This document shows, piece by piece, positions 2,387 through 18,259 of a DNA stretch of 20,777 nt. This stretch comes from a virus. A model generated the notes under the pieces. The model searched no databases, was not told the DNA's origin, and saw only the letters and a program-made list of their open reading frames with translations. The position numbers and the translations under genes are program-made. The stretch lies in IMG/VR virus record IMGVR_UViG_3300013093_004244, positions 1-20,777 of that record. One strand, written 5' to 3'. Position 1 is the first letter of the stretch. Each line of letters starts with the position of its first letter.

Positions 2387-3079
2387 TTAGATACTTAGTT
2401 TTTTACTATGTAAACGATCTATTAAATGAGTAATACCTTTTAAGGTATCGTCATTCCTTAGGCTTTTGTAGACCAAATTAGGTATGCTGAATTCTCCATC
2501 AGCTGACGAGTGCAGGCCTAATTTTCTATATCTACGTAGTAATTGTACACTATTTCTCATGGTTTGTAAATCACCAGTTTTAATTGCGTGTTTTAAAACT
2601 GTATGCCAAACTGAAATCATGTGTTCCAATTTTTCTTTGTCAATCTTGTATTTTTTAGTTTTGGGTTTTTGAATCCACTGGTCATGCAAGATGCTATAGC
2701 TAGCAGTAACCGCAGGGTGATCTTTGTCTTCTACGTAAAGTTCTATTGGTATATTGCTTATGGATAAGTCATATTTGTAACGGTATAATAGTCTTTTGGT
2801 ATCAAATAGTTCTGCTACTTCTCGATCGCAATCGACTGTAGTGAAGTCTGTTATAATATGTAGATCTATATCGCTTTTATTTGTATAGGTATAATTTGCA
2901 TTACCACCAGCTATAACAATGTCTACGACCTTAACTGGTACTTCCACAAAATCTATAAAGTCTTCGGCTATGCGTAATAAAGCTCCGCGCACTGAGCTTT
3001 TCAAACGGTTATGATCCCATAGTTTAGGATTTAGTACAGGATGCTGGCCAATTGGCAATGAAAATTCCGTTAAATTCAT
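2387..3079 (-). CDS. Nucleotidyltransferase-fold protein (Pol beta-like)
   Basis: The 230-residue protein carries the hallmark of the minimal nucleotidyltransferase fold: a GG dipeptide at 58-59, then D70-x-D72 in SDIDLHII, and a third carboxylate at about E113 in IELYVED. The metal-binding triad appears intact, so transfer of a nucleotide to an unknown acceptor is plausible. The C-terminal third is helical and basic. As I recall, similar proteins are common hypotheticals in T4-like marine phages; their substrate is not known to me. A late-type AATAAATA box ends 8 nt before the ATG with no Shine-Dalgarno. The next gene, a HAD phosphatase, follows after one base and is probably translated by coupling, which suggests a joint role on nucleotides or nucleic-acid ends. 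Confidence 0.7.
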   Translation of the reverse strand: MNLTEFSLPIGQHPVLNPKLWDHNRLKSSVRGALLRIAEDFIDFVEVPVKVVDIVIAGGNANYTYTNKSDIDLHIITDFTTVDCDREVAELFDTKRLLYRYKYDLSISNIPIELYVEDKDHPAVTASYSILHDQWIQKPKTKKYKIDKEKLEHMISVWHTVLKHAIKTGDLQTMRNSVQLLRRYRKLGLHSSADGEFSIPNLVYKSLRNDDTLKGITHLIDRLHSKKLSI

Positions 3080-3666: not shown

Positions 3667-3687
3667 AAATTAATCCTTTTCTGGATT
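3662..3687 (-). terminator. Weak intrinsic terminator after helicase gene
   Basis: On the minus strand AATCC and GGATT can pair as a 5-bp stem around a 6-nt A-rich loop, followed by AATTTTT. It spans the last codons and stop of the helicase gene. The stem is short with only two G-C pairs, so activity is doubtful. On the plus strand the T-run is missing, so it would act only on leftward transcripts. Confidence 0.3.
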
Positions 3688-5100
3688 TAGGTTACTCAAC
3701 ATACTGCGAATAGCCGGCGCTGCTGTTTTGCTTTTAATCTTACTGATACTAATACCTTGTGTAGGATCTACAGTAGTTTCTGTAGTAGATACCATACTAG
3801 TACGTTTCAATCCCGCCATGATACTGCTAGTACCAGATTGTGTTTTTTGTTGACTCAAACTAGTTTCTTCTTCTTCACCTAGGTCCGAAATACGCAAAGT
3901 ATCTAAATTAAATTCTAATTCAACTTTTTGTCCTACACCACTGCTAGAACGTGTTTTCATAAACTGTATTTGATATCTACCACGTTCTTTCATAGCCCTA
4001 CTAGTAAAGATACCTATAACGTTATCAGCTGTCATAATCTTACTCAAACCGCCTGAAATATGACTATGATCGAACTCAATTTCTTCAACTGCTGCGCGAT
4101 TCAACTGACTAGCTGTAACAGTTATACATTGTGTTTCCATAGCTAAGTTTCTAATCTCTTCCGACACATATTTGTCTTTTACAAACAAATCGCTGGGCGA
4201 TACCTTCACTGATAAAGGCATCATCAAATCGAGATAATCTATTAATAAAACGTCGGGTTTTACACCTTTTTTGACCTGATATTCCTTCAAATAGGCTCGA
4301 ATATCGTTGCAATTTTTTCCGCTGGGCATATACTTGATTTGTATGCTTCCGGCGCTTTTTCCAGCCATTTTAACTTTAAGCTCTACATCGTCCAAATTAC
4401 GGAATATCTCGCGTGTACCGATGCCTGTAATCATACTATCCAATCGCATGGCCACTAGATTTTCACTTAACTCAAAAGTTAAGTAAACAACATTCAAGCC
4501 CATCATAGCCCAGTTTATTCCCATATTAGCCAAGAATAAACTCTTACCACCGCCAGATGCTGCTGCAAAAATATTCAATTCACCGCGGTTAAATCCACCA
4601 TAAAGTTTCTTGTCCACAGTGGGCCAACCAGTGCTAATTTGTCCATTGCTGTTTTTCAGCATGGTCAATCTACTTCTGGGATCTTCAAAATAATCTGTAC
4701 CCATATCTTTATTCAAACTGATTTGTATTGCATCTTTAATCAGTTTTTCTACTGGACCATAGTCTCCAGCTTCCAATAAATCACTGCTTTTAATAATAGC
4801 TCGTTCTAGCCCCTTATGACGACTAAAATTTTCAAATTCATCCATTAGCCATTCATAATTTTCTTTGGGCAATGTTACTGGATTAAAATCACTATTAGTT
4901 GACGCATTAACAATACTAGCCTCGGGCATAACTTTATATTCATCTACATAATCATGAATAAATTTTGCTGCTGCTTGTAATTTTTGATTAAAGTTTTCCG
5001 GGTCAAATATATTTTGGCAACGTATAAAAGTTTCTGCATCTGAAAGAAACATTTCCAAATATAATTTTTGTATATCATAATTGTAGTTTGTTTTATTCAT
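3670..5100 (-). CDS. 41: Replicative DNA helicase, T4 gp41-like (DnaB family)
   Basis: This is the hexameric 5'-3' helicase that unwinds the fork and works with the adjacent primase. The first 130 residues form a helical N-terminal collar. A RecA-type motor domain follows, with Walker A AAASGGGKS at 179-187. A segment around 205-212 ending TFELS gives the DnaB-type glutamate (E210). Walker B is DVLLIDYLD at 283-291, and a sensor-like TASQLNRAA follows at about 328-336. Length (476) matches the T4 gp41 class. The C-terminal 70 residues are Ser/Thr/Gln rich and probably a flexible tail for partner contacts. The gene starts inside the end of the primase gene (8-nt overlap), the same 61-41 order as T4, and so is translationally coupled to it. 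Confidence 0.92.
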   Translation of the reverse strand: MNKTNYNYDIQKLYLEMFLSDAETFIRCQNIFDPENFNQKLQAAAKFIHDYVDEYKVMPEASIVNASTNSDFNPVTLPKENYEWLMDEFENFSRHKGLERAIIKSSDLLEAGDYGPVEKLIKDAIQISLNKDMGTDYFEDPRSRLTMLKNSNGQISTGWPTVDKKLYGGFNRGELNIFAAASGGGKSLFLANMGINWAMMGLNVVYLTFELSENLVAMRLDSMITGIGTREIFRNLDDVELKVKMAGKSAGSIQIKYMPSGKNCNDIRAYLKEYQVKKGVKPDVLLIDYLDLMMPLSVKVSPSDLFVKDKYVSEEIRNLAMETQCITVTASQLNRAAVEEIEFDHSHISGGLSKIMTADNVIGIFTSRAMKERGRYQIQFMKTRSSSGVGQKVELEFNLDTLRISDLGEEEETSLSQQKTQSGTSSIMAGLKRTSMVSTTETTVDPTQGISISKIKSKTAAPAIRSMLSNLNPEKD

Positions 5101-6091
5101 GTAATCCCCTTAACTTTTTCATCAACAAATTAATTTTAATCTCGCCGCTAACTCTATAATGTAATATAGTAGTTAGTGTATATAGCCGACCGTATCTTTT
5201 TACTGCATCGGCTACGTCTTTAATATCATCTTCCCAAGGTGGCACACTAACTGACCAATTATTTTCCAATGCAGCCTTTAACATTTTTGCACCGGCAGCA
5301 TCTCGATCTGGAACAACAATAACTTCACGACCTAATGCGTTTATTCTAGCGCATTGTGTTTCATTTGGATCATTATGTGATATTGCACAACCATCTATAC
5401 TGATAGCGTCAAATTGACCTTCAACAACTATTATATATGCTCTTGAATCTGATTGCCTATCTAAATTGAAAACATAGCCGGGCTGAGTATCTGTAAGATA
5501 TTTTGGTTTACCATTAGTAATTTTTCTACCGGTATATCCCACAATCTTTCCATTATGGTAAAATGGTATAATCACTCGATCTCTATAGCCCGGTGTCGAA
5601 CTCCAATACCAAGTATACCATTCCCATTTCATTTGTCTTTGACTAACAATGTATTCAATTACAGATAAGAGATCTGGATCTTTGCATCCTTCATCAATCC
5701 ATTGATCTATGGGCATACAGTTATCTGGTAATTCTTTTTCTTCTAATTCAAACTGTAATTCTTTTTTAGTTACAGGCTGGTTATCTCTAAGTTTAAGAGC
5801 AATTAACCCTAGTTTTCCTAAATCATTTTCACTTAATCCTAACCATGTGAATAGTTTTTTAGTATTGGCGCTGATTAAATGTCCGGGTGTCCAACCTGCT
5901 TTGAAATTGCAGTTAAAACAATGATATTGAAATCCGCCATTGGGATTAACTAATATACCACCACGTTTTTTAGTATCACGATTTTCGCCATTATTATGAC
6001 AACAGACAGCATTGAAACTTATCCATCCGCTAGGAGTGGATTTACGTTTACCTGGAAGTAAAGATAATAATGCTGATTGTATTTCGTTCAC
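5093..6091 (-). CDS. 61: DNA primase, T4 gp61-like (zinc ribbon plus TOPRIM)
   Basis: It makes RNA primers for lagging-strand synthesis together with the gp41-like helicase. A zinc-ribbon is visible in the N-terminal part: C31-H32 and C58-x2-C61. The TOPRIM catalytic fold is clear: VVEGQFDAI with E224, then VPDRDAAG with D262 and D264, the conserved acidic metal-binding set. A basic stretch near 168-200 (YRDRVIIPF, then YTGRK) precedes TOPRIM as in DnaG-type primases. At 332 residues it is close to T4 gp61 (342). The start is a GTG, 9 nt after the stop of the virion-protein gene, with no strong Shine-Dalgarno. Translation may therefore depend on upstream ribosomes. No promoter is seen for primase alone. 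Confidence 0.9.
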   Translation of the reverse strand: MNEIQSALLSLLPGKRKSTPSGWISFNAVCCHNNGENRDTKKRGGILVNPNGGFQYHCFNCNFKAGWTPGHLISANTKKLFTWLGLSENDLGKLGLIALKLRDNQPVTKKELQFELEEKELPDNCMPIDQWIDEGCKDPDLLSVIEYIVSQRQMKWEWYTWYWSSTPGYRDRVIIPFYHNGKIVGYTGRKITNGKPKYLTDTQPGYVFNLDRQSDSRAYIIVVEGQFDAISIDGCAISHNDPNETQCARINALGREVIVVPDRDAAGAKMLKAALENNWSVSVPPWEDDIKDVADAVKRYGRLYTLTTILHYRVSGEIKINLLMKKLRGLHE

Positions 6092-6100
6092 TAAGCTAGT

Positions 6101-7162
6101 TTAGCTTCTATATAACACAAAGTCAAATGAACCGTAATATCCAGGATTATCATTAGTACTACCACCTGGAGCAACTGCTGGAACATACATCACGCTAACA
6201 TAAGTGAATACGCCATTAAAATTGACATAATCTACTCCACTAAAGCCATTGTAAGTTAATGTTGCCAGTGTTGCATATTTTCCAAAACTATCGGGTTCAT
6301 TACTTAGGGTTCCTAATATATAAACAGTACCATAAAATGGACCGCTGGCTCCCATATACAATGCCATAGTATGTAAAGCAGTAGGACTATCATATTCTGG
6401 GTAAGCATAAGTGTTACCGCTTTTCCATTCATAAAGATTAGTTGATGCATTATAGCTTTGAAGGAATGAAGTAATTGTTTGACTAGGTTGTAATTGCGGG
6501 TATACTTGATCATTCAAATATATAGTTCCGGCAATATCATAATAGGTATTAGCATATGCAACTTCGTATGTACCATCTGTAGGATCTTGATAAGTTACAG
6601 AATATTGATATGGACCACGATCTAAATTTATAGTATCGTTTTCCAAGAAAGTTAATTGTCCTACACCACGCAATGATAATGTATTAAAAGTTAAACTAGT
6701 AGCCGAAGTAACTACCAAAGTAGTAGAATTATTAAGGGTTACTGTACCAAATGGACTATCGTAATTAGTTATAATAGTGTTAGGTGGAATACCAAATCCA
6801 GAAACAGTTTGACCAATAGAAATACCTGTAGCAGTAGTAGAAACTAGTAAAATATTGCTAGCAGTAGTTTGATCTTGTACTTGATTTAAAACTACAGTAT
6901 CATCCAATATTTGTAGCTGCTTTTGCAAAACCAATTTTTGGCTGCTAGGATCAAACATATTAAAAACATATGTGCTAGTACTAGGAATGGGCAAGCGTTT
7001 TTGATCGCTATTTTTGAATTGAATGTTAATTTTATTCTTAACACCCTTTTGTATTTTTAAATCTCGTTGATACATAACCTCGTTAACTCCTAGTACATCC
7101 GGATCCAAATCTAGTATAACATCGAGAGAGTTTGGATATAAATAGATTGGTAGACTTTGCAT
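6101..7162 (-). CDS. Virion structural protein, baseplate/fibre-type, with inserted beta domain
   Basis: This is a 353-residue beta-rich protein with no enzyme motif. Residues about 28-90 and 165-230 look like two halves of one domain common in T4-like marine structural proteins. The first half has YQRDLKIQKG and an FKNSDQKR segment; the second has LDRGPYQYSV and ends near YPQLQPSQ. Between them, about 92-163, lies a Thr/Ser/Gly-rich beta repeat (GISIGQTVSGFGIPP) of a kind seen in phage fibres and bacterial adhesins, so it appears to be an insertion. Residues 230-353 are a Tyr/Gly/Ser-rich beta domain, possibly receptor- or sugar-binding. A late-type AATAAATA box ends 6 nt before the ATG. Primase and helicase genes follow in the same direction. 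The exact virion position is unknown. Confidence 0.7.
   Translation of the reverse strand: MQSLPIYLYPNSLDVILDLDPDVLGVNEVMYQRDLKIQKGVKNKINIQFKNSDQKRLPIPSTSTYVFNMFDPSSQKLVLQKQLQILDDTVVLNQVQDQTTASNILLVSTTATGISIGQTVSGFGIPPNTIITNYDSPFGTVTLNNSTTLVVTSATSLTFNTLSLRGVGQLTFLENDTINLDRGPYQYSVTYQDPTDGTYEVAYANTYYDIAGTIYLNDQVYPQLQPSQTITSFLQSYNASTNLYEWKSGNTYAYPEYDSPTALHTMALYMGASGPFYGTVYILGTLSNEPDSFGKYATLATLTYNGFSGVDYVNFNGVFTYVSVMYVPAVAPGGSTNDNPGYYGSFDFVLYRS
7137..7144 (+). promoter_or_regulatory. Perfect T4 late promoter box TATAAATA
   Basis: TATAAATA matches the T4 late consensus exactly. It lies inside the 5' end of the minus-strand virion-protein gene and faces right. With initiation 5-7 nt downstream, a leader of roughly 34 nt would precede the ATG at 7184. 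It overlaps back-to-back with the leftward box at 7169-7176. Confidence 0.6.
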
Positions 7163-7168
7163 AATAGC

Positions 7169-7176
7169 TATTTATT
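7169..7176 (-). promoter_or_regulatory. Late-type promoter box AATAAATA
   Basis: Read leftwards this is AATAAATA and ends 6 nt before the ATG at 7162, leaving no room for a Shine-Dalgarno. It would drive the virion protein and possibly primase and helicase. Confidence 0.5.
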
Positions 7177-7183
7177 GATAAAG

Positions 7184-7567
7184 ATGTCCAAAAATACTGA
7201 GTTTCAAAAAAATCACCCGTTTATATCATGTATAAAATCTAATGATATTGAATATGTGGGTATAATCATTAATTACGACAATTATATTGCCAGTATCTAC
7301 GATATTTCCAAAATAAACACCGACAAAGAAAAGAGGTTTTTTCTAGAATTAGGAGAAACTTGGTGGTGGGAATCTAATCGTAAATTACCCATTAATATCT
7401 TCCTTAAAAACCAAATGCAGGTGTTTAGATATGCTATCAAAACATTCAACAGTAAAGATGTTGAACTAGTATTTGGGCCAACTGTTAATTTAAGTGAGAT
7501 TGCAGAAAAACGAATTAAACGTAAATCAATACAGTTGGTTAGATCTGTGAAGAGTATTCGAAGTTAA
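7184..7567 (+). CDS. Small conserved T4-like phage protein, unknown function
   Basis: The open frame extends up to a TTG at 7157, but the ATG at 7184 (127 residues, beginning MSKNTEF) fits better because homologues as I recall them begin near there. The protein is soluble and basic. It has a beta-rich N-terminal half and a strongly patterned centre: LGETWWWESNRKLPI, then an FLKNQMQVF helix. The C-terminus is basic (KRIKRKSIQLVR). The W-W-W-E-S-N-R-K-L-P core is one I recall from hypothetical proteins of T4-like marine phages, where it is a single conserved gene without known role. The basic tail suggests nucleic-acid contact (inference). A perfect TATAAATA box at 7137 implies late expression. 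Its end overlaps the convergent DnaE-like gene by 29 nt. Confidence 0.7.
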   Translation: MSKNTEFQKNHPFISCIKSNDIEYVGIIINYDNYIASIYDISKINTDKEKRFFLELGETWWWESNRKLPINIFLKNQMQVFRYAIKTFNSKDVELVFGPTVNLSEIAEKRIKRKSIQLVRSVKSIRS

Positions 7568-8117
7568 GTTTTTCACATAATAAGTTCATGTGTACTACCA
7601 CAACCATTGCGTAACTGATGGCGTGTGCTTTCTTAAAATAGTACTCATCATTGTCAGGTTTCGTCCAAACCTCGTTCATAATCGTCGTCCAATCCTTCCC
7701 AATCAAATAGCGTTTTGCCGGTCTGATCATAGCTAGGACTGCACCTAATTGTTCCACGGAAGTAGGGCAAGTCTGTTTCAGTACATCCAGGTGCCCGTTC
7801 AAATGAAATAACAGATTTACAAATTCTTCTTCCAAAAGTAGATTCCATAAGGGCTCCTGTTCAAGTAATTTATTTAAATGTTTTTCGTTTTTAATGTCTT
7901 GATATATACTTACATTGAGGAAATCTATCTTAAAATAACCTCTATCTTCTGCGGTTTTGTAATCAAGACTAGCATTTCCAGTTAAAGGATTGACTGGAAT
8001 TTTATGACAATAAACACCAGTATTATGTCTACGTCCATCTTCTAATGTTGCTGGAACACTCTTAATAATTTCAAGTATTTTTTTTCTATCAGCAAAGTCA
8101 ATATCAATATCAGGCAT
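7539..8117 (-). CDS. Miniature DnaE-like protein (Pol III alpha catalytic-core remnant)
   Basis: This 192-residue protein is colinear with the catalytic palm of bacterial DNA polymerase III alpha (DnaE, over 1,100 residues). PDIDIDF at 2-8 matches E. coli PDFDVDF, so D5 and D7 align with catalytic D401 and D403. HNTGVY at 31-36 fits the KHAGGV region. KIDFL at 63-67 matches KFDFL, so D65 aligns with D555 and K63 with K553. LAMIRP at 128-133 fits the LVALFRPG region, and KKAHAISYAMV at 162-172 fits NKSHSAAYALV. PHP, beta-binding and OB domains are absent, the fingers are almost gone, and the upstream Gly-Ser nucleotide-binding motif is missing. It is therefore unlikely to be a processive polymerase; a reduced nucleotidyltransferase, regulator or vestige is possible. 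The ATG lies 8 nt inside the end of the kinase gene. Confidence 0.7.
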   Translation of the reverse strand: MPDIDIDFADRKKILEIIKSVPATLEDGRRHNTGVYCHKIPVNPLTGNASLDYKTAEDRGYFKIDFLNVSIYQDIKNEKHLNKLLEQEPLWNLLLEEEFVNLLFHLNGHLDVLKQTCPTSVEQLGAVLAMIRPAKRYLIGKDWTTIMNEVWTKPDNDEYYFKKAHAISYAMVVVVHMNLLCEKLNFEYSSQI

Positions 8118-8880
8118 TAGCGATTTCTTCTAAGGTTGGGGCATAGTTACCACGATGTTGTACGGTGATACTTGCTGCTTTATTAGCAAATACTATAGCA
8201 TCGTCTATTGAATTTGTCATTAAGAATTGATAGGTTAATGCAGATAAAAATGTATCTCCGCACCCACAAACATCTACAGGTTCTACGGTATTTCCGCTAA
8301 ACATTTTCTTAGTTTCGTGTTCCAAATACATTGCACCGTTGCCACCTAAAGTAACAATAGTTTTTTCACCGTTGCTCCATCGATTATTATATTCGGTTTC
8401 ATTAATTTTAAGATAGCATCCATAAAATTTATGTAATTCTTTTTTCTTAGTATCAACAAATATTGGGCCTTTGTATTTTTGAAGAATCATTTCTATATGC
8501 GAATCTGTAATAAAGCCTTTATTATAATCGGAAATTACAACAGCAGTATAATTTTCCCAATTACCTTTAATTTTTCCATTCCAAGGTTTAATAGTAGATT
8601 CTTTATCAACCCGTAACAAATGTTGTCCAGATCTTTTATCAATGTATCGAGTCTTAATAATGGATTCTCTGTTAGAGATAAAATCTACTTCACAATTTAG
8701 TTTTTTTAAATTATCTAAAACATTTTCAGCCATACCAACAGCAGTATACTGTTCGGCTATTTTCATAATAGGAACAGGGGCTTCGGGATTTAACCTATCA
8801 CAGGTTCCTATAATATATTCATCGGTACAACGATCACCGATTAATAATATTTTGAATGATGTTAGTTGTTGAGTATCCAT
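8110..8880 (-). CDS. hldE1: HldE1-type D-glycero-D-manno-heptose-7-phosphate kinase (PfkB fold)
   Basis: It probably phosphorylates D-glycero-beta-D-manno-heptose 7-phosphate at C1 in ADP-heptose synthesis. The fold is PfkB/ribokinase. LIGDRCTDEYIIG at 13-25 and RLNPEAPVPI at 29-38 match the HldE N-terminal domain. GMAENV at 49-54 fits the family GGAANV, and SDYNKG at 117-122 fits DYAKG. The anion hole and base are GCGDTF at 206-211 with D209. At 256 residues it is shorter than the E. coli kinase domain, with a clear deletion after about residue 68. The frame is open to 8901, but GAAAGGA sits 5 nt before the ATG at 8880, so that start is chosen. It still overlaps the upstream adenylyltransferase gene by 47 nt. 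A general sugar kinase is the alternative. Confidence 0.78.
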   Translation of the reverse strand: MDTQQLTSFKILLIGDRCTDEYIIGTCDRLNPEAPVPIMKIAEQYTAVGMAENVLDNLKKLNCEVDFISNRESIIKTRYIDKRSGQHLLRVDKESTIKPWNGKIKGNWENYTAVVISDYNKGFITDSHIEMILQKYKGPIFVDTKKKELHKFYGCYLKINETEYNNRWSNGEKTIVTLGGNGAMYLEHETKKMFSGNTVEPVDVCGCGDTFLSALTYQFLMTNSIDDAIVFANKAASITVQHRGNYAPTLEEIANA

Positions 8881-9226
8881 ATATCCTTTCAAAAAAAACA
8901 ATTTTCTTACAAACTTCTTCGCCTACAATAGGTTTACCTTGATAATCGCTGCCTTTGACCATTATATCACACATACTAACTAATCTAATAAGTTCATTAT
9001 CGTTGTTGAAAATAACTACTTCATCGACTGCTTTTAAATTTTTTAACATTAACCATCGGTCATATTCACGAGTAATTGGCCTATCGGGTCCTTTTAATGT
9101 TTTAATTCTTCGATCGCTGTCTATGCCTACTATTAATTGATCGCCAAGACTTTTAGCATAATTTAACAGTTCAATATGTCCGGTATGTAAAATATCAAAC
9201 GTACCGTTTACAAAAACTTTAATCAT
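8834..9226 (-). CDS. hldE2: HldE2-type ADP-heptose adenylyltransferase
   Basis: This 130-residue cytidylyltransferase-fold protein corresponds to the C-terminal domain of HldE, which joins AMP from ATP to heptose 1-phosphate. The nucleotide-binding signature NGTFDILHTGH is at 7-17, with the HxGH histidines. GIDSDRRIK at 34-42 and a segment ending GPDRPI follow. The second family signature is YSTTNII at about 118-124. In E. coli this domain is fused behind the kinase; here it is a separate gene and lies before the kinase gene. Its ATG overlaps the hldD stop as ATGA, implying translational coupling. Glycerol-phosphate cytidylyltransferase is a fold relative, but the Hld neighbours favour heptose. 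It lacks the upstream steps GmhA and GmhB, which the host would have to supply. Confidence 0.8.
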   Translation of the reverse strand: MIKVFVNGTFDILHTGHIELLNYAKSLGDQLIVGIDSDRRIKTLKGPDRPITREYDRWLMLKNLKAVDEVVIFNNDNELIRLVSMCDIMVKGSDYQGKPIVGEEVCKKIVFFERIYGYSTTNIIQNIINR

Positions 9227-9996
9227 ACAGGATAATATTTTCTTAATTTTTCTAAATTAGCACATGTATATGTTTGATATTGAGCTTTTACATTATCTGG
9301 CATAGGAATATATTCTATTCGAGCATTATATTGTTGAGCAATTTCTTGTGCAACATCTTGAAACGATTTTGCTACACCTGTACCGATATTCCAAATTCCA
9401 GAATCCATGACATTGAAAAATGTTTTATGTACATCAATTACTCTTTCCACTGGTACAAAATCTCTCAAATACTTGTCCGATCCTTCGAACAGTTTTATAA
9501 CTCCGTCGTTTTTTGCTTGTTGCGTAAATTTGTAGTATGGGCTTGCTTGATCGCCTTTGTGATCTTCATAAGGTCCATATACATTAAAATATCGAAATCC
9601 TTGTATACGGCATTTCCATTTTCCAGTAAAACCTCTAATATATCTTTCAAAAAGATATTTACTCCAAGCATATGGACTGCGAGGATCTACTGGAGCATCT
9701 TCTCTAAAATCATTTTTTAATCCATATACACTTGCTGAACTTGCAAATTGAAAATTAACAGAAAATTTATGACATTCACCTAAAATCCATCTGCTAAAAT
9801 CATAATTTTGTCCGATAACCTTTTCTACATCAGTTTCAGTAGTTGAACTTACTGCACCTAGATGTATTACTAAATCTAAACCTTCGACATTAGGAATAGG
9901 ATCGTTCCAATCGAAGAATCGTAGGTCGTGATCTTTAAGAGCAGCAACCATGTTTTGACCAATAAAACCTTTATGGCCGGTAATTAATATTTTCAT
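9223..9996 (-). CDS. hldD: ADP-L-glycero-D-manno-heptose 6-epimerase (HldD), short form
   Basis: This is a short-chain dehydrogenase/reductase-fold epimerase that inverts C6 of ADP-heptose, the precursor of the LPS inner core. The NAD(P) Rossmann motif is GHKGFIG at 7-13. The active-site set is SSASVYG at 86-92 and Y109-x3-K113. HldD-specific signatures are clear: SSTTETD at 50-56, GFRYFNVYGP and GHKG-like residues in the substrate region, then KLFEGSDKYLRDFVPV and NIGTG. It is 257 residues against about 310 in E. coli; the missing part is the C-terminal helical end after the YQTYTCANL segment. Core catalytic residues are kept, so activity is likely. It is coupled by ATGA overlaps to the upstream cupin gene and the downstream adenylyltransferase gene. 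Confidence 0.88.
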   Translation of the reverse strand: MKILITGHKGFIGQNMVAALKDHDLRFFDWNDPIPNVEGLDLVIHLGAVSSTTETDVEKVIGQNYDFSRWILGECHKFSVNFQFASSASVYGLKNDFREDAPVDPRSPYAWSKYLFERYIRGFTGKWKCRIQGFRYFNVYGPYEDHKGDQASPYYKFTQQAKNDGVIKLFEGSDKYLRDFVPVERVIDVHKTFFNVMDSGIWNIGTGVAKSFQDVAQEIAQQYNARIEYIPMPDNVKAQYQTYTCANLEKLRKYYPV

Positions 9997-10349
9997 TTTT
10001 GACTATCGCCTTTACCTACTCGGTAATTATCTTCTACACTATCAGGTGTGCTAACTTCGATTACTGTGCCAGCAACTAAACATTCTAATTGATGGGGAAG
10101 CAATGGCGGATTATGCCAAACATCGCCTTCTTTCAAGGTTTTTGCATGAATACTAGCATCTTTAGTATCAATCCATCGAACAATAAATTCACCAGATGAC
10201 ACATACCATGTTTCGTCTTTTTCAGAATGGAAATGCATACTGAATTTTGCACCTTGATTGAAAGACATCATTTTGCCACAATATTTTTCGTTTGTGGCCC
10301 AAATTAATTCATGTCCCCAACCTTTTTTTACAAATCCTTCTAATCTCAT
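9993..10349 (-). CDS. Cupin-fold sugar-nucleotide-associated protein
   Basis: This 118-residue single-domain cupin resembles the small mannose-6-phosphate isomerase-like cupins found in cell-surface sugar gene clusters. Cupin motif 1 is MHFHSEKDETWYV with putative metal ligands H39, H41 and E46, followed by SGE at 52-54. Motif 2 has P-H-Q with H86. The N-terminal GWGHELIWATNEKYCGK is a pattern I associate with cupins in heptose or capsule clusters. It could isomerise, epimerise or bind a sugar; the substrate is unknown. A strong GAGGAAATT ribosome-binding site precedes the ATG at 10349. The stop overlaps the hldD start as ATGA, tying it to the ADP-heptose genes. A purely regulatory sugar-binding role is also possible. 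Confidence 0.72.
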   Translation of the reverse strand: MRLEGFVKKGWGHELIWATNEKYCGKMMSFNQGAKFSMHFHSEKDETWYVSSGEFIVRWIDTKDASIHAKTLKEGDVWHNPPLLPHQLECLVAGTVIEVSTPDSVEDNYRVGKGDSQK

Positions 10350-10359
10350 AATTTCCTCA

Positions 10360-11055
10360 TTATTTTATACCTGTTTCTCGGCAAATCTCATTTATTAATG
10401 CTATATCTGACGGAACTTCCTTGAATCGTTTTGTCCAAAAAGCAACATCAAATGCAGGAGCGATCATATTCAATTGTTCGTCACTCATATTGTTTATCAT
10501 AGTTTTTCCACTGGTACAGTTTAATATGAGCCAAGGACTTATTCGTCCATTTAATATATCGTGCACTGCTTTATTTAGACTGACATAGTTAAAGTAATGT
10601 GCAAATTCGGCATTGTGTTCGTCAGCCCATTCCATCATGGTTTGAATACTTCTTTGTACAGCAGATTCCACAGGTTCTTGTTTAATCATTTCATAAAGAT
10701 AAGTTTCATATAATTCATCTCTACACCAATGATCCAATTTTACGCCACTTTTGATTACAAAATCTACAAACTTATCTGGATATAAAGGATTAACATTATT
10801 AAGAAAACTACCAAATTTTACAAATGCGTTGTAATATGCTGTATCGCAAAATTCTTCATAAGTTTTGTTCTTTTTACCATTTTGGGCTAATTTCCAAAAT
10901 CTATTAAAAGCCATAAAACCAGCTTGTACACGTTTTTCGTCTTTTTGTAATGCACGTCGTTTTCTTTCACACATATGGGCCACTAGAGTTTTTTCTTTCA
11001 TAAAACTCTTACCACAATGTACACAATTAAACGGTTGGTCCACTAAATCAATCAT
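10360..11055 (-). CDS. Zinc-finger conserved phage protein, unknown function
   Basis: The 231-residue protein opens with a C2H2-like finger: C11-x2-C14 in FNCVHCGKSF, then H27 and C29 (MCERKRR), effectively a C2HC ligand set. A highly basic linker (30-45) follows. The rest is helical with many Trp, Phe and Tyr; it has no catalytic motif I recognise. I recall the N-terminal pattern (a Cys-pair finger, then basic residues and a QxGFxxFxRF helix) from conserved hypothetical proteins of T4-like marine phages. DNA or RNA binding, for example in transcription or replication control, is likely but inferred. The start overlaps the SGNH hydrolase stop as ATGA, so it is cotranslated with that gene. It stands between the replication block and the heptose genes. 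Confidence 0.65.
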   Translation of the reverse strand: MIDLVDQPFNCVHCGKSFMKEKTLVAHMCERKRRALQKDEKRVQAGFMAFNRFWKLAQNGKKNKTYEEFCDTAYYNAFVKFGSFLNNVNPLYPDKFVDFVIKSGVKLDHWCRDELYETYLYEMIKQEPVESAVQRSIQTMMEWADEHNAEFAHYFNYVSLNKAVHDILNGRISPWLILNCTSGKTMINNMSDEQLNMIAPAFDVAFWTKRFKEVPSDIALINEICRETGIK

Positions 11056-12341: not shown

Positions 12342-12845
12342 TTACCAGCATTTACTATAATTGATTATTTCACTTTGTCGAGAAACTTCTTTGACAAAAT
12401 AAGCACAGGTAGGATTAAGACCATTGTGCAACGGAGTACATAATAGTTGACCTGGACGCATTTTAGGAAAATACCATTTAACATCTTGGTACACATCAAT
12501 AATATCAATATCTAAAAAATCTGGTCTAAATCCACTCAATGGATTAAAACAAAATGTTTTAAATCCTCGATCGTTAAGGCTAGTTAATGGCAATACTTCC
12601 ATGTCTGGGCCTTCAGGATCTCCTACTACTGCACACCAATCTAATGGCATAGTTAATTCATATTTTCCAATTTTTAATACTACAGCAGGACCTGTAAAAC
12701 TTTCTAAAAATATTAATGGAACAAAAAAATGATCAGGGTTTTGATTATCACTGTTATCTAAAACAGCAAATCTTAAATCCTCATCTATTTCATCTGGTAG
12801 ATCATTTAGTGAGAATGTTTTATTTTCTAATGTTAAAATCTGCAT
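12342..12845 (-). CDS. Conserved T4-like phage protein, unknown function
   Basis: This 167-residue protein is rich in acidic residues and aromatics and is predicted to be mostly beta. Recognisable blocks are KYELTMPLDWCAVVGD around 62-77, LPLTSLNDRGF at 85-95, FNPLSGF at 99-105, and MRPGQLLCTPL near 131-141. The closing AYFVKEVSRQSE segment is near 150-161. The W-x-x-x-V/I-G-D and S-L-N-D-R-G-F blocks recur, as I recall, in hypothetical proteins of T4-like marine phages; no function is known to me. Its ATG shares one base with the uvsW stop (TAATG), so it should be cotranslated with UvsW. The context suggests a role in DNA metabolism or early expression, but nothing in the sequence proves it. 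Confidence 0.65.
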   Translation of the reverse strand: MQILTLENKTFSLNDLPDEIDEDLRFAVLDNSDNQNPDHFFVPLIFLESFTGPAVVLKIGKYELTMPLDWCAVVGDPEGPDMEVLPLTSLNDRGFKTFCFNPLSGFRPDFLDIDIIDVYQDVKWYFPKMRPGQLLCTPLHNGLNPTCAYFVKEVSRQSEIINYSKCW

Positions 12846-14305
12846 TATTGATATTTTACCTTTTCTATATTAAATGGATATTTGGCTTCTTTATAAAACC
12901 TTTTACGTTCTGTTAGATGCCGTTTAGCATACTTAGTTGCAGCAGTTATATCCCATATCTGCACAAAATCTTTATCTTCGGCCTTGCGAATACCGCGACC
13001 AATACTTTGAATAACCCTAACAAAGCTCTTTCCGGGTTCAAGAAGAACTAAGTTAAAGATTCGAGGTATATTAATTCCTACAGCAGCCACGCCATACGTT
13101 GCTACAATAATTTTGTTATCACTAGTTTTGATTTCATCATATTCTTCCTTACGATCCTTGGTTTTTACTTTTCCTGATACAAATACCGCTTCTGGTATTT
13201 GATCTACAATAAACTTACCAGATTCAATTCTACCGACTAATACTAATGTGTTACCACTTTCACTAATTTTTCGTATAACGTTGCTAATGTATGTCATTCT
13301 TGTTTCATCAGTAACAAGATAATTTAATTCTTCTGCATACCCTCCGAATTCTTTCCATTCGCCGGTTTGAACAATTTTTACATGGCAATTACTTAGTACT
13401 CCTGAGTCCTGAAGTGTATGAGCAAATACATGGTTTGTTACTTCGCCTAAACTAGCTTTAATGCTTTGAAATTCATGGTCTGCCTTGGGTATAGTTCCAG
13501 TCAACCCCCATCGAATTGGAGCATTTGCTAAATTGCGTGTTAGAAGATTTTTTAACACATCTGCCTTGGCCATATGAACTTCGTCAACTATAATTGTTTT
13601 TACATTTTCTAATAGTAATTCTAATTTTGCCGAAGCTGCGTCATCCCAATTTTTACTATTTTTGTCTAAAACATTAAGACTTTGCCAAGTACAAATTGTA
13701 TGTGTTCGATCTAAATCTTTTCTATCTCCATAATAAACTCCGACATCTAATCCGCAGTTTATAAAATCTTCTTCTGTTTGTTCCACTAAAGATTTATTAG
13801 GAACAACGGTTATAGTTCGACCATATTTTTCACAAATTTTGCTCAAAGTTGCGGTGGTAATAGTTTTACCAAACCCTGTGGCAATTTCTTGGATACTTTG
13901 TGGATGTTTAAGAAATATGTTAATAACTTCAACTTGATCTTCTCTTAATCTAATAGGTTGACCAGCAAAGCGATGTCCCACAGGCCATGTTTTTTCTCCC
14001 CAAAAATCTTCAGAAATTTCATCAAAATTTAAGTCAATTGGAATTCGTTGATCTTCAAGTTCAATATAGAAATTTTTACTTTCTAAATATTCTAATACGG
14101 CAGGAAGCATACTCAAATAGGTAGTTCCTCCTAAACCAAAAAAACTTACAGTTCCGTCCCAACGACCTAATTTATATGCTGGTCTAAACCGTGCTGTAGG
14201 ATCTTCGTATTTGAATTTTCTGACCAAAGCCTTGCGTGTGTCAAGATCTAAATTTTCTATCTTGACATTAACTTCGTCTTTAATTATGACTTTACAGTGG
14301 TGCAA
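12845..14305 (-). CDS. uvsW: UvsW-type superfamily 2 DNA helicase
   Basis: UvsW is an ATP-dependent helicase that regresses forks, migrates branches and removes R-loops during recombination-dependent replication. The small N-terminal UvsW domain covers about 1-100 (KLGRWDGTVSFF at 45-56 is characteristic). Helicase motifs follow in order: REDQ Q-motif-like at 121-124, Walker A ATGFGKT at 142-148, VVPNKSL at 167-173, DEVH at 241-244 and GLTGT at 267-271. VATYGVAAVGINIP falls at about 401-414 and motif VI QSIGRGIRK at 433-441. Length (486) fits T4 UvsW. The start lies 14 nt inside the preceding HARP-like gene. Every catalytic motif is intact, so it should be active. Confidence 0.93.
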   Translation of the reverse strand: MHHCKVIIKDEVNVKIENLDLDTRKALVRKFKYEDPTARFRPAYKLGRWDGTVSFFGLGGTTYLSMLPAVLEYLESKNFYIELEDQRIPIDLNFDEISEDFWGEKTWPVGHRFAGQPIRLREDQVEVINIFLKHPQSIQEIATGFGKTITTATLSKICEKYGRTITVVPNKSLVEQTEEDFINCGLDVGVYYGDRKDLDRTHTICTWQSLNVLDKNSKNWDDAASAKLELLLENVKTIIVDEVHMAKADVLKNLLTRNLANAPIRWGLTGTIPKADHEFQSIKASLGEVTNHVFAHTLQDSGVLSNCHVKIVQTGEWKEFGGYAEELNYLVTDETRMTYISNVIRKISESGNTLVLVGRIESGKFIVDQIPEAVFVSGKVKTKDRKEEYDEIKTSDNKIIVATYGVAAVGINIPRIFNLVLLEPGKSFVRVIQSIGRGIRKAEDKDFVQIWDITAATKYAKRHLTERKRFYKEAKYPFNIEKVKYQ

Positions 14306-15488
14306 ATCTGAATTCCTTTTGTAATGATTGATTAGTATAAATTATCAAATTTTCATGATTTTCTATAAAATTTTTAATGACACGATGATCGTTTTTTCCA
14401 CCTAAATTAACAATGGAGTTAAATTTTATTTGAGATTTTAATAATGGTTTAGGTAGTTTACCATTAATAAAAGCTACTTGAATATTTTCGTTTATTAAAT
14501 TATTTAAATTTTGATTTTTCACAAAAATATTGAAATTTTTATCGGTTTCTGAGGGTAATCTAAACATCACACTCATTTGCTCATTGCTAATGCCAATGCT
14601 GTTTAAGAAATTTACAGATTTTTGTAAATCTTCTAATTGATTACCATTTGGAATAACAAACAAACATGGACTTAGATATTTTATGATATCAGTTAGTTGA
14701 GAAAAATCCGTTTTTTCTGAATTTATATAAAAATTTTCAGAAGGATCGGTCTTTAAAAATTCTTTAATTACAGGAATAGCATCGCATTGGTCTAACAATC
14801 CAGCTAATACATCATCGTGACTAAAAATTCCATATTTTCTTGCTGTAAAAAATGCTTCCAAAATATTATTGGTCGAAAAATCAGGTATTTTTTCAGAAAT
14901 ATTCTTAAATTTTATAGTTGTGCCGTCTAACGTTAGCATAGGCACAATATTTTCTATATTTTTTATTACTTCCACAATTTGATCAAAGTACATTTTCAAT
15001 TCATTGCTAATTTGAAAATTTTCTGTGTTGGCAAAATCCATTAAAAATCTTAAATTCTTCTCGCTAAGTGAAAAAAACCAAGATTTTTCATCGGGATTCC
15101 AAATAGCCTTATCGAGCTTGTTTTTATTTTGTCTAATTTTTGTTATATATGTTTCATTATAAGGAAATTGTACTTTGACCTCCTTATTAAAAATTCCAGT
15201 TTGAACAATTGACATTATTTTTTGATTAATTGATGTTCTTATTGGAAATTTAAAAAGAGGATTTTCAAAAAAATCACCAACATATAATTTTAATTCGGTG
15301 TTTAAATGATTTTTGTATTTTTTTAAAATCTTCAAGGCTAATGTTGCTTGTTTTTCTGTAAATCCAACATTGCGAGCAATTTGTTCAGAAAAACTAAAGA
15401 TGATTTTTTGATCATAATTGTTAATTGATACTTTTGAATTATATATAGTATATGATAATTTAACAATTAAATTTTCTACAGTAATCAT
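14292..15488 (-). CDS. HARP-like domain protein, candidate UvsW partner
   Basis: I know no named family for this roughly 398-residue protein. Numbering here counts from an alternative GTG at 15503, directly after the uvsY stop. The ATG at 15488 (sixth residue) is preferred only as the commoner start codon; neither has a clear Shine-Dalgarno. Residues 38-67 are helical, with FTEKQATLALKILKKY. Residues 108-156 resemble a HARP (HepA-related) domain: VKVQFPYNETYI, then IWNPDEKSWFFSLSEKNLRFL with the family's W-x(6)-W-x-F spacing. The remainder looks like a worn Rossmann or helicase core without Walker motifs (LFVIPNGN, SIVNLGG and NLIIYT strands). HARP domains in SMARCAL1-type annealing helicases support strand annealing. 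The gene overlaps uvsW by 14 nt, suggesting a split helicase-accessory pair (inference). Confidence 0.6.
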   Translation of the reverse strand: MITVENLIVKLSYTIYNSKVSINNYDQKIIFSFSEQIARNVGFTEKQATLALKILKKYKNHLNTELKLYVGDFFENPLFKFPIRTSINQKIMSIVQTGIFNKEVKVQFPYNETYITKIRQNKNKLDKAIWNPDEKSWFFSLSEKNLRFLMDFANTENFQISNELKMYFDQIVEVIKNIENIVPMLTLDGTTIKFKNISEKIPDFSTNNILEAFFTARKYGIFSHDDVLAGLLDQCDAIPVIKEFLKTDPSENFYINSEKTDFSQLTDIIKYLSPCLFVIPNGNQLEDLQKSVNFLNSIGISNEQMSVMFRLPSETDKNFNIFVKNQNLNNLINENIQVAFINGKLPKPLLKSQIKFNSIVNLGGKNDHRVIKNFIENHENLIIYTNQSLQKEFRFAPL

Positions 15489-15503
15489 AAGGTTATTATA
15501 CAC

Positions 15504-15959
15504 TCAAAGTGTGATATCTTCAAGACCTGCGGCACGTAGTTTAATAATATTACTTAGTTGCCATTGCTTAATGTCTAATGCTTTGATAATACCTAACCAT
15601 TGATTTCGCAGCATAGCAAATTCGTTGATAATTTTTTCCATATCAACAACATCTGCTTCACCTTCGACGTATTTTTCACAATCTCTACTGCTTAACGCAC
15701 GCTGATAGTTTTCCAAATACTTTTTAAAGGCTTTGGATTTTGTACGGCGTAATTCTATATTTAGGTATTCAAGAACAGCTTCGATTTCTTGTAATTGATT
15801 AAATCTATGTTCAACGATGCCGGGCAAGGACGCCGAAGCTTTTTCCACGTTACCGTGAATTTTAACTTCGGTTCGTGCCTTGTCCAGTTCGTTATAGAAA
15901 TAATCTAAACATTGAGGAAGATGTGCTATGTCTTTACTGACCTTAGCATACCAACTCAT
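15504..15959 (-). CDS. uvsY: UvsY-like recombination mediator
   Basis: UvsY helps UvsX displace gp32 and load on single-stranded DNA. This 151-residue protein is all helical, basic in the middle and close to T4 UvsY (137). Supporting segments are LEYLNIELRRTKSKAFKKYL near 63-82, LSSRDCEKYVEGEADVVDM around 89-107, and WLGIIKALDIKQWQLSNIIKL at about 120-140. The D/E-K-Y-x-x-G-E-x-D-V block and the terminal W-x-G-I helix agree with the UvsY pattern. Order uvsX, small gene, uvsY, then uvsW is T4-like. The start codon overlaps the stop of the acidic gene by one base, so it is coupled. Family identity rests on pattern and context; no catalytic residues exist to check. Confidence 0.78.
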   Translation of the reverse strand: MSWYAKVSKDIAHLPQCLDYFYNELDKARTEVKIHGNVEKASASLPGIVEHRFNQLQEIEAVLEYLNIELRRTKSKAFKKYLENYQRALSSRDCEKYVEGEADVVDMEKIINEFAMLRNQWLGIIKALDIKQWQLSNIIKLRAAGLEDITL

Positions 15960-16222
15960 TAGTATTCCTCGTCATCTTCGTCGGAATCCCAATTATTCTC
16001 ATCTTCATCATCATCTTCGTAATCGTCATCTTCCTTGAGAGCAAGATTAATAGCAGCATCCATATGAGGATCGTATCCTGTAACACTACCTAATACAGAT
16101 AAACCTACATCACGCCCTAACAAGAAATCAACATAATGACTAGCAGCGACTTCTCTATTTTTTTCTGGAATATATTCTTTAAATACATCCCACATATCAA
16201 TAATCATATCTTCTTCTATCAT
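15959..16222 (-). CDS. Acidic-tailed mini-protein between uvsX and uvsY
   Basis: This 87-residue protein has two parts. Residues 1-62 form a helical domain with DMWDVFKEYIPEKNREVAA at 9-27, then HYVDFLLGRDVG at 29-40. Residues 63-87 are extraordinarily acidic: 18 of 25 positions are Asp or Glu. Such tails mimic DNA and compete for single-strand-binding or recombinase surfaces, much like the acidic tail of gp32. The gene overlaps uvsX as ATGA and touches uvsY by one base, so all three are probably made in fixed ratio. I recall similar small proteins next to uvsX in T4-like marine phages without known function. A role in tuning the UvsX-UvsY-gp32 exchange is inference from position and charge. 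Confidence 0.65.
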   Translation of the reverse strand: MIEEDMIIDMWDVFKEYIPEKNREVAASHYVDFLLGRDVGLSVLGSVTGYDPHMDAAINLALKEDDDYEDDDEDENNWDSDEDDEEY

Positions 16223-17274
16223 GATTCCTCTTCCGTTTCTGTTTGTGTTGTTAATAGTACAGCATTAGCATCCCACTGTTTCATAATTAACTGTAATTTA
16301 TCTTCAGTCCAGTTTTTGCGGAACTCTGCGATAATTTCGCCAGTATCTTTATCAGTATATGCTAACTTATTTCCTACTTTAGATAATATATTCATTTTTT
16401 CAAACATGTCAACCAATCCTGAGGTCGGGCTCATTCCTGTTGTATAAGGAATTTCTACCTGTACACTTTCAAATGGTTTAGCATACCGAGTTTTCATAAT
16501 TTTACAAGCACTACGAATTCCATGTACTTCGGAAGTTTTGTTTCCATCTGCGTCTGTTTTTAATTTTAACTTACGCATAGCAACTACAATAGAACTTGCA
16601 TAAATGAATCCTTGTCCGCCACTGATTTTGTCATCTGGATCAAACATATCTTGACTAGCGTATGTATGATTAGTACAAACTAATCCAACATTCCAACTAC
16701 CAAACATATTGACACAGTTTCGAACCAATGCTGTTAATGCTTTAGGTTTACGACCCATGTCACCTTTTAAGTCACCTGCTTCAAACTGATTTAAATCAGT
16801 TGGAGTCATTAACATTCCAAGACTATCAATTACAAAAAGAATTTTTGGTCGTTCCTCTTCGGGCATACCTTTGTATTCTTTCATAAACTCACTAATGGTT
16901 TTTGCCACATCGTCGATCATTGCCATGTTTAATTTTAGCAATTTTTCTTCTGATGTATCAACACCAAGAGCGTGTAACCATGCTTCGTCCAACGCATTTT
17001 CACTGTCAATTAATATGACAAAGATACCTTGTTCTTGAGCATTTTTGATAATATTACCTGAGCAAATATAACTTTTACCTGCACCAGATTCTCCAGCAAA
17101 TACCGTAACTTTACCGAGAGGGACTCCTCGAAAGAAGTCCCCACTGATAAGATAGTTAAGTGCATAGTTGCCAGTTGAGATCCAATCTGTTGGATCGTTA
17201 AAACCAATTCCTAGTCCGTCAATCGATTTAGTAATAGATTTACGGAACTTCGAAATATCGAAGGCCTTTCCCAT
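16219..17274 (-). CDS. uvsX: UvsX RecA-like recombinase
   Basis: UvsX forms filaments on single-stranded DNA and drives strand exchange for recombination-dependent replication. The 351-residue length matches the T4 family (about 390) and RecA (about 350). Walker A GESGAGKS is at 61-68, SEN with the catalytic-type glutamate E92 is at 91-93, and Walker B KILFVIDS is at 144-151. KGDMGRKPKALT near 169-180 corresponds to loop L1. An NHTYAS segment is at about 202-207, and KISGGQG near 216-222 marks loop L2. A clear AGGAGA ribosome-binding site lies 13 nt after the gp32 stop. The stop overlaps the next start as ATGA. All ATPase residues are present. Confidence 0.93.
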   Translation of the reverse strand: MGKAFDISKFRKSITKSIDGLGIGFNDPTDWISTGNYALNYLISGDFFRGVPLGKVTVFAGESGAGKSYICSGNIIKNAQEQGIFVILIDSENALDEAWLHALGVDTSEEKLLKLNMAMIDDVAKTISEFMKEYKGMPEEERPKILFVIDSLGMLMTPTDLNQFEAGDLKGDMGRKPKALTALVRNCVNMFGSWNVGLVCTNHTYASQDMFDPDDKISGGQGFIYASSIVVAMRKLKLKTDADGNKTSEVHGIRSACKIMKTRYAKPFESVQVEIPYTTGMSPTSGLVDMFEKMNILSKVGNKLAYTDKDTGEIIAEFRKNWTEDKLQLIMKQWDANAVLLTTQTETEEES

Positions 17275-17287
17275 AATCTATCTCCTA

Positions 17288-18259
17288 TTATTGTGCTTGA
17301 CGTTTACGAATCATTGAGATAATATCAGCAGCACGACTGCTAGCATCATTACCTGTTGATTCAGTTACAGTTACTTTTGTTTTTGTAGTAGCAACTACTT
17401 CTTCATCTGCATCAACATCATCGCTGGCTGTTGATTTTGAAGAAGTTGTAGATCCAGTTGCCTGACCGCTACCACCAAATCCTGCTGGCTTAAAGTATTG
17501 ACCCCAACGATCACCATCATATGCTTCACCTTCTACTGATGCTTCAAACATTTCTTTGATAACTTTGAGTTCAACAGCACCTGGCTTCTTAGGTAAAAAT
17601 TCAGATAAGTTAAATAATCCATATTGCTTAATTGCTGCTTGTTCTTCATCACTTAATGCGCGTTCACGACGTGCCCAGCTTGATGTAGTATAGTCAGCAA
17701 ATCCGCCCTTACTGGTTTTAACAATCTTAAAATCTAGACCACGAACATAATCTGTTGGTAATTCATCGATCTCACTATCCATAAGTGCATTCTTAACAAT
17801 GTTAAAAATTTGTGCGCTCATAATAAAACGACGAATTGGATTTTCAGGAACTCGATCTTCTTGTAGTTTACTGTCAACTACAAAGCCTTGGAATAAGTAC
17901 GAACGTTTCTTCCAATACTTACGACCCATATCTTCTAAACTCTTATCCTTAAACCATGGACGAACTTCTGTTAAGATTGGGCAAGTTTCTCCCCACATTT
18001 CCATACAAGGAACTTGTACAGTTACAGGTTTGCTGTTAGTTTCACCTTTAATTCCAGCAAACGGCAATTTAATCATTGCTCGTTCAATCCAGAAAAAAGT
18101 GTTATTTGGATCAGCATCTGGAAGGAAACGAACTGTTGCAGTTGCACCTTCTGAGATATTCCAATGTGGGAAAATGGCGTTATCACCGCCGTTTGATTGA
18201 TTACTTGTTTGTTGTGCGCTTGCTTGAAGCTTTGCGCGGATTTCTGCTAATGAGGCCAT
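17288..18259 (-). CDS. 32: gp32-like single-stranded DNA-binding protein
   Basis: It coats single-stranded DNA at forks and recombination intermediates and contacts UvsX, UvsY and primase-helicase. The basic N-terminus ASLAEIRAKLQ at 2-12 provides the cooperativity domain. The OB core (about 28-230) includes HWNISEGATATVRFLPD at 32-48 and RKYWKKRSYLFQGFVV at 113-128. The T4 zinc site would use one His and three Cys; here only C85 and C93 remain in the PCMEMWGETCPI region, so zinc binding is doubtful. Residues 262-305 are Ser/Thr rich with an acidic DDVDADEE patch, and a conserved-looking C-terminal helix AADIISMIRKR closes it. A strong AGGAGA site 7 nt before the ATG fits high expression. The gene heads the long leftward operon behind a terminator. 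Confidence 0.92.
   Translation of the reverse strand: MASLAEIRAKLQASAQQTSNQSNGGDNAIFPHWNISEGATATVRFLPDADPNNTFFWIERAMIKLPFAGIKGETNSKPVTVQVPCMEMWGETCPILTEVRPWFKDKSLEDMGRKYWKKRSYLFQGFVVDSKLQEDRVPENPIRRFIMSAQIFNIVKNALMDSEIDELPTDYVRGLDFKIVKTSKGGFADYTTSSWARRERALSDEEQAAIKQYGLFNLSEFLPKKPGAVELKVIKEMFEASVEGEAYDGDRWGQYFKPAGFGGSGQATGSTTSSKSTASDDVDADEEVVATTKTKVTVTESTGNDASSRAADIISMIRKRQAQ

Follow-up and report, generated by a model that had tools for sequence, protein, structure and literature searches.

A mini-DnaE gene in an uncultured phage fragment, very probably encoding the C-half of a split minimal Pol III alpha

The window analysed here, meaning the whole 20,777-nucleotide (20.8-kb) stretch of DNA, is a fragment of an uncultured phage, and it carries a short gene for a DnaE-like protein together with the following replication and recombination genes.

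3670..5100, minus strand: DnaB-like replicative helicase, downstream neighbour (phrog_19, E=1.3e-72; 42 of 42 loci)
5093..6091, minus strand: DnaG-type primase, downstream neighbour (phrog_47, E=1.8e-36; 42 of 42 loci)
7157..7567, plus strand: convergent small ORF (phrog_11637), its 3′ end overlapping the 3′ end of the mini-DnaE gene; kept in 42 of 42 loci
7539..8117, minus strand: mini-DnaE, 192 aa with the stop codon inside the coordinates; almost certainly the C-terminal half (C-half) of a split minimal Pol III alpha (phrog_11778, E=2.4e-63; AF2 pLDDT 92.4)
12845..14305, minus strand: UvsW-like helicase, upstream neighbour (phrog_16, E=1.7e-77; 39 of 42 loci)
15504..18259, minus strand: UvsY, a small ORF, UvsX and a gp32-like SSB, T4-type recombination genes (phrog_231, phrog_97, phrog_1192)

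The mini-DnaE gene, which we call the C-half gene, reads from an ATG start at 8117 to 7539 on the minus strand, and the plus strand opposite it (7539..8117) is full of stop codons. Among the 42 related loci with enough flank to be counted, the order C-half, convergent phrog_11637 ORF, structural-like ORF, primase and DnaB is kept in every one, and most annotated phages agree with it. The 3′ ends of the C-half and phrog_11637 ORFs overlap by 4–30 bases in 56 of 70 loci; this small ORF is a lone reversed gene inside a co-directional replication block, and its tail-to-tail overlap with mini-DnaE has been long kept. Several further features of the minus strand can be recorded. Directly upstream of mini-DnaE, at 8110-10349, is a heptose-type sugar-activation cassette (PfkB-type kinase, HldE-like nucleotidyltransferase, epimerase and cupin) that is found in this subclade only, at 10 of the 42 testable loci. 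A conserved upstream ORF at 10360-11055 (phrog_11058) has a weak N-terminal C2H2-type zinc-finger signature (Pfam, below cut-off), and the 403-aa ORF at 14292-15503, between UvsW and UvsY, has no confident family match. At 2387-3079 lies an ORF (phrog_36119) whose GGNANYTYTNKSDIDLHII stretch resembles the canonical Pol beta-type nucleotidyltransferase motif; close relatives keep this ORF on the downstream side of DnaB.

The C-half protein matches the phrog_11778 profile (annotated 'DNA polymerase', 197 positions) end to end, over profile positions 8-194, and it also matches the phage long-DnaE family phrog_405 (E=5.8e-5), while a Pfam search with it gave no match. When the single sequence was searched against the PDB, Pol III alpha was the only match and a weak one (E=0.21); when a profile of 49 homologues was compared with the PDB sequences, mycobacterial Pol III alpha ranked first (E=2.8e-5) through four collinear blocks. 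Relatives of the C-half were found by tblastn in 90 phage records and number at least 547 in a scan of IMG/VR, and a scan of bacterial genomes gave, among the matches listed, three that are DnaE-like, at 25–30% identity, a weak result on whether bacteria have homologues. Pairwise dN/dS between near relatives is 0.03–0.17 where dS is not saturated, and for the window gene against its near relatives it is 0.05–0.14. On these comparisons, the C-half protein is homologous to the palm and fingers of C-family polymerases. The motifs that carry the homology are the following, with E. coli numbering taken from MG1655 DnaE.

8094..8114, minus strand: PDIDIDF, residues 2-8; D3/D5 correspond to E. coli DnaE D401/D403
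8010..8027, minus strand: HNTGVY, residues 31-36; equivalent by order and spacing to the DnaE HAGG block (H511)
7917..7931, minus strand: KIDFL, residues 63-67; K63/D65 correspond to K553/D555
7719..7736, minus strand: LAMIRP, residues 128-133; R132/P133 correspond to R639/P640 of FRPGPL, by profile alignment to E. coli 594-641
7608..7637, minus strand: FKKAHAISYA, residues 161-170; H165 corresponds to the steric-gate residue H760 of FNKSHS

A preliminary description of this DNA had read these five motifs as DnaE blocks in DnaE order, and both the motif positions in the 192-residue ORF and the collinearity were borne out. It had also proposed that all three catalytic aspartates are kept, which is so in 49 of 49 homologues, but it numbered the first pair incorrectly, as D5 and D7. 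In the MG1655 protein, the relevant residues read M399-P400-D401-F402-D403-V404-D405-F406, K553-F554-D555, F638-R639-P640 and F756-N757-K758-S759-H760, so that D3 aligns with D401, D5 with D403, D7 with D405, K63 with K553, D65 with D555 (as had been proposed), R132 with R639 and H165 with H760. The active-site residues of E. coli DnaE are D401, D403 and D555, and H760 is its modelled steric gate (PMC8485763). The catalytic pair is thus D3/D5, and mutating D7 in place of D3 would miss one metal ligand. By the same alignment, H165 occupies the steric-gate position, which the preliminary description had missed.

Across the alignment of 49 homologues, which are 36–83% identical to the window protein, the residues D3, D5, D7, K63, D65, R132, P133, K135, K162 and H165 are invariant, and all three catalytic carboxylates of C-family polymerases (D3, D5 and D65) are present in each of these 49; H31 and G34 of the HNTGVY block are invariant as well. 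The distant C-halves of phages Slicko01, SCTP-2 and RAS14 keep the DxDID, KxD, RP and SHA blocks. The C-half of Stenotrophomonas phage RAS14, at 32% identity and with an MDIDIDL start, lies outside the usual primase/DnaB neighbourhood. As to what has been removed, the 192 residues hold no sequence for the PHP, thumb, beta-binding or OB domains, and the spans that form the thumb (406-510) and fingers (641-755) in E. coli DnaE are each shrunk to ~25 aa. The earlier reading of a cut-down core was correct for the lost PHP, OB and clamp-binding parts but not for the fingers, which in part remain as the RPxK and FKKAHA segments with the steric-gate helix. The C-half also lacks the GRGS nucleotide-binding element of the palm.

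The missing element is found in a second protein. Six annotated phages were searched with PF07733, and each has a short protein with GRGS; its family is phrog_11127 (also 'DNA polymerase', 171 positions), the protein is ~170 aa long, and we refer to it as the N-terminal half, or N-half. GxGRGS is invariant in 57 of 57 N-halves, and E. coli DnaE 320-392 is the region matched by the N-half profile. N-half reading frames run to the EFL[KR] block or at most about 10 residues past it. In DnaE numbering, the N-half stops at ~393 and this clade's C-half begins at 399, so only about six DnaE residues (393-398) are absent between the halves in the window's clade. C-halves of this clade begin MPDIDIDF, usually with an upstream stop codon within about 20 codons, while more distant C-halves have a few to about 20 additional residues ahead of the DIDID motif. 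No natural fusion of N-half and C-half was seen among 85 N-half and 80 C-half loci, and in phage 121Q, where the two halves are gp16 and gp56, their genes lie at 13.3 and 44.3 kb. Because the GRGS element is encoded by a separate, distant gene, the C-half is not a whole catalytic core, and the earlier idea of a lone C-family mini-core does not hold, since the GRGS half was a separate gene in every complete or large relative checked.

The two halves also occur together. The N-half is present in 10 of 10 records selected by the C-half, of which nine are annotated phages and the tenth is a 270-kb contig, and the C-half is present in 8 of 8 records of at least 200 kb selected by the N-half; each half is single copy per record at the thresholds used, and records below 200 kb may miss one half, as expected for fragments. 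There is no N-half within the window's own 20.8-kb fragment, and from its relatives we infer that this phage has one outside it. Alishewanella phage Slicko01, a complete circular record of 141,431 bp, has both halves and a B-family polymerase, so the split pair is not confined to jumbo phages; in Slicko01 and 121Q alike, a chaperonin-like ORF comes next after the N-half gene. Of 17 records, 15 have a B-family polymerase and the other two are fragments of less than 150 kb; no such gene lies within the window's 20.8 kb. A DnaQ-type exonuclease was considered as a fixed partner and rejected, as no more than 6 of 14 records have it. Hosts of the C-half relatives range from Agrobacterium to Escherichia and Vibrio. 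The split pair is encoded, in addition to the usual polymerase, by a large set of T4-like phages, most of them giant. The preliminary description had not expected a C-family protein in a T4-type phage; its gene is instead single-copy and syntenic in a lineage that has a B-family polymerase too.

Structure prediction was applied to each half as a single chain. The AlphaFold models have pLDDT 92.4 and pTM 0.82 for the C-half and pLDDT 94.2 and pTM 0.75 for the N-half. In Foldseek searches of the PDB, ranks 1-15 for both halves were all Pol III alpha or PolC and nothing else rose above noise, in line with the structural check that had been suggested for the C-half; the homologue check suggested beside it likewise came out with the aspartates conserved in all 49 aligned. 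The best E-values were 6.6e-4 for the C-half (TM-score by query length 0.39-0.50) and 3.9e-3 for the N-half, and TM-scores by query length over both halves were about 0.37-0.50; such low TM-scores and modest E-values are expected for parts taken out of a protein that is far larger and rearranged. In a viral structure library, the leading named matches were phage Pol III alpha proteins. From the profile matches, the partner and the models, we conclude with little reservation that the product of 7539..8117 is the C-half of a split minimal Pol III alpha.

As to what the pair does, we think it probable that the C-half is the metal-binding half of a minimal C-family nucleotidyltransferase encoded as two proteins, and likely, with somewhat more assurance, that C-half and N-half form a composite catalytic site. 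The two chains would meet without a covalent link at DnaE ~393/399 and rebuild one palm active site, to which the N-half would contribute GRGS and the C-half D3, D5, D65, K63 and the fingers helix with H165. One feature of the sequences counts against such a composite enzyme: the position of E. coli DnaE R390 (in FERFL), which is position 165 of the N-half alignment, is Glu or Asp in 57 of 57 N-halves, a charge reversal beside the split point. If the halves do assemble and act on DNA and dNTPs, we infer a two-subunit auxiliary polymerase or nucleotidyltransferase working as a partner of the replication–recombination machinery. With the thumb, PHP, OB and clamp-binding parts missing from the complex, its synthesis would be expected to be short, distributive and clamp-independent, beside the B-family replicase and not as bulk replication, and the jobs expected of it would be gap filling or primer extension in recombination-dependent replication or repair. 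Given the gene linkage and the missing parts, auxiliary DNA synthesis of this kind is plausible, with at most an even chance of being correct. More tentatively, the two chains (~360 aa together) might be the smallest C-family polymerase, a thumbless, PHP-less, clamp-independent heterodimer that would be a second DNA-synthesising enzyme in hundreds of phages and possibly resembles an ancestral Pol III core.

The loss of most of the fingers (E. coli 641-755) and of the thumb (406-510) could abolish DNA-templated synthesis, and the two halves may instead be a catalytic nucleotidyltransferase that is not DNA-templated and adds, for example, a few nucleotides onto DNA ends, RNA or protein. Many Pol beta-fold enzymes are template-independent, and it speaks for this reading that the metal-binding, GRGS and steric-gate residues are invariant in a pair that has lost the thumb and a large part of the fingers. 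We nevertheless consider it rather unlikely, because the conserved linkage to the primase, DnaB, UvsW/UvsX/UvsY and SSB genes points to DNA replication and recombination, and because the kept equivalent of H760 agrees with a selection of dNTPs at the primer end (PMC8485763). A non-catalytic or regulatory role for the pair, as an accessory factor of the B-family replicase or primosome with the Pol III fold as its scaffold, is quite improbable; a B-family polymerase is always alongside where the genome is large enough, and the two chains are too small for a replicase, but a scaffold would not hold metal ligands, GRGS and steric gate invariant down to 36–41% identity. The preliminary description had raised a mimic of host Pol III alpha or a decoy for the host clamp or clamp loader, either of which would act by sequestering host proteins, and the homology with host DnaE would suit that proposal; we judge it very unlikely, since it fails to explain catalytic residues that are invariant on both halves, the N-half partner co-occurs, the C-half has no clamp-binding, OB or tau-binding parts, the relatives' hosts are as diverse as noted above, and the C-half gene keeps a fixed place among phage replication genes. 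That the protein is a functionless, degenerate remnant of a once full-length DnaE, as its far shorter length and the label 'truncated' in phage CBB (PMC5259590) might suggest, is refuted by the dN/dS values and also has against it the hundreds of relatives, the invariant residues and the fixed N-half partner, which leave it next to no chance.

For a two-chain catalytic site, the question can be tested now because cultured phages that grow on laboratory E. coli carry both half-genes; Sharanji, whose record gives MG1655 as its host, is an example of a phage growing on K-12. An assay of the C-half without the N-half would probably give a false negative, and the residues to regard as catalytic are D3/D5 plus D65. 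If the two chains do come together as an active enzyme, this would tell how small a part of Pol III alpha is enough for catalysis and why a phage with a B-family replicase keeps a bacterial-type one.

Compared with known polymerases, T4 gp43 is a B-family replicase of a kind also carried by the window protein's phage lineage, but it has another fold, is another gene and is not homologous to the window protein. Full-length or PHP-less DnaE/PolC proteins of phages (phrog_405 and phrog_11165; Streptomyces phage Indigo and Bacillus phage PJN02) match the profiles of both halves; unlike the split pair, those of Indigo and PJN02 are one long chain of about 1,120–1,160 aa, annotated as phage DNA polymerase. 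Bacterial DnaE (E. coli, Thermus aquaticus and Mycobacterium) shares the collinear PDxDxDF, K-x-D-F, RP and F-x-K-x-H-A blocks with the C-half and GRGS with its partner, whereas in the pair the PHP, thumb, OB and beta-binding regions and a large part of the fingers are lacking and the chain is broken at ~393/399. The short C-half protein was noticed in earlier papers on phages CBB and Atu_ph07, and Iyer et al. (2021) reported that group 2.2 jumbo phages carry a minimal Pol III alpha, specific to phages, whose two parts are separate proteins with genes far apart; they suggested that it cooperates with the B-family polymerase in making one of the strands or in repair (PMC7824862). Our literature search found no experimental study of the split Pol III alpha and no paper on it after 2021; the 'split DNA polymerase' of MIJ3 was rejected as an instance, being a B-family enzyme with an intein. 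New relative to Iyer et al. are the reciprocal co-occurrence counts, the break point, the steric-gate conservation, the gene order kept in 42 of 42 loci and the complete 141-kb phage with both halves. The window protein adds a further member to this published family (phrog_11778 for the C-half and phrog_11127 for the N-half) and is no different in kind from it; what sets the window apart is that it is a fragment of an uncultured phage with the C-half alone and a sugar cassette directly upstream.
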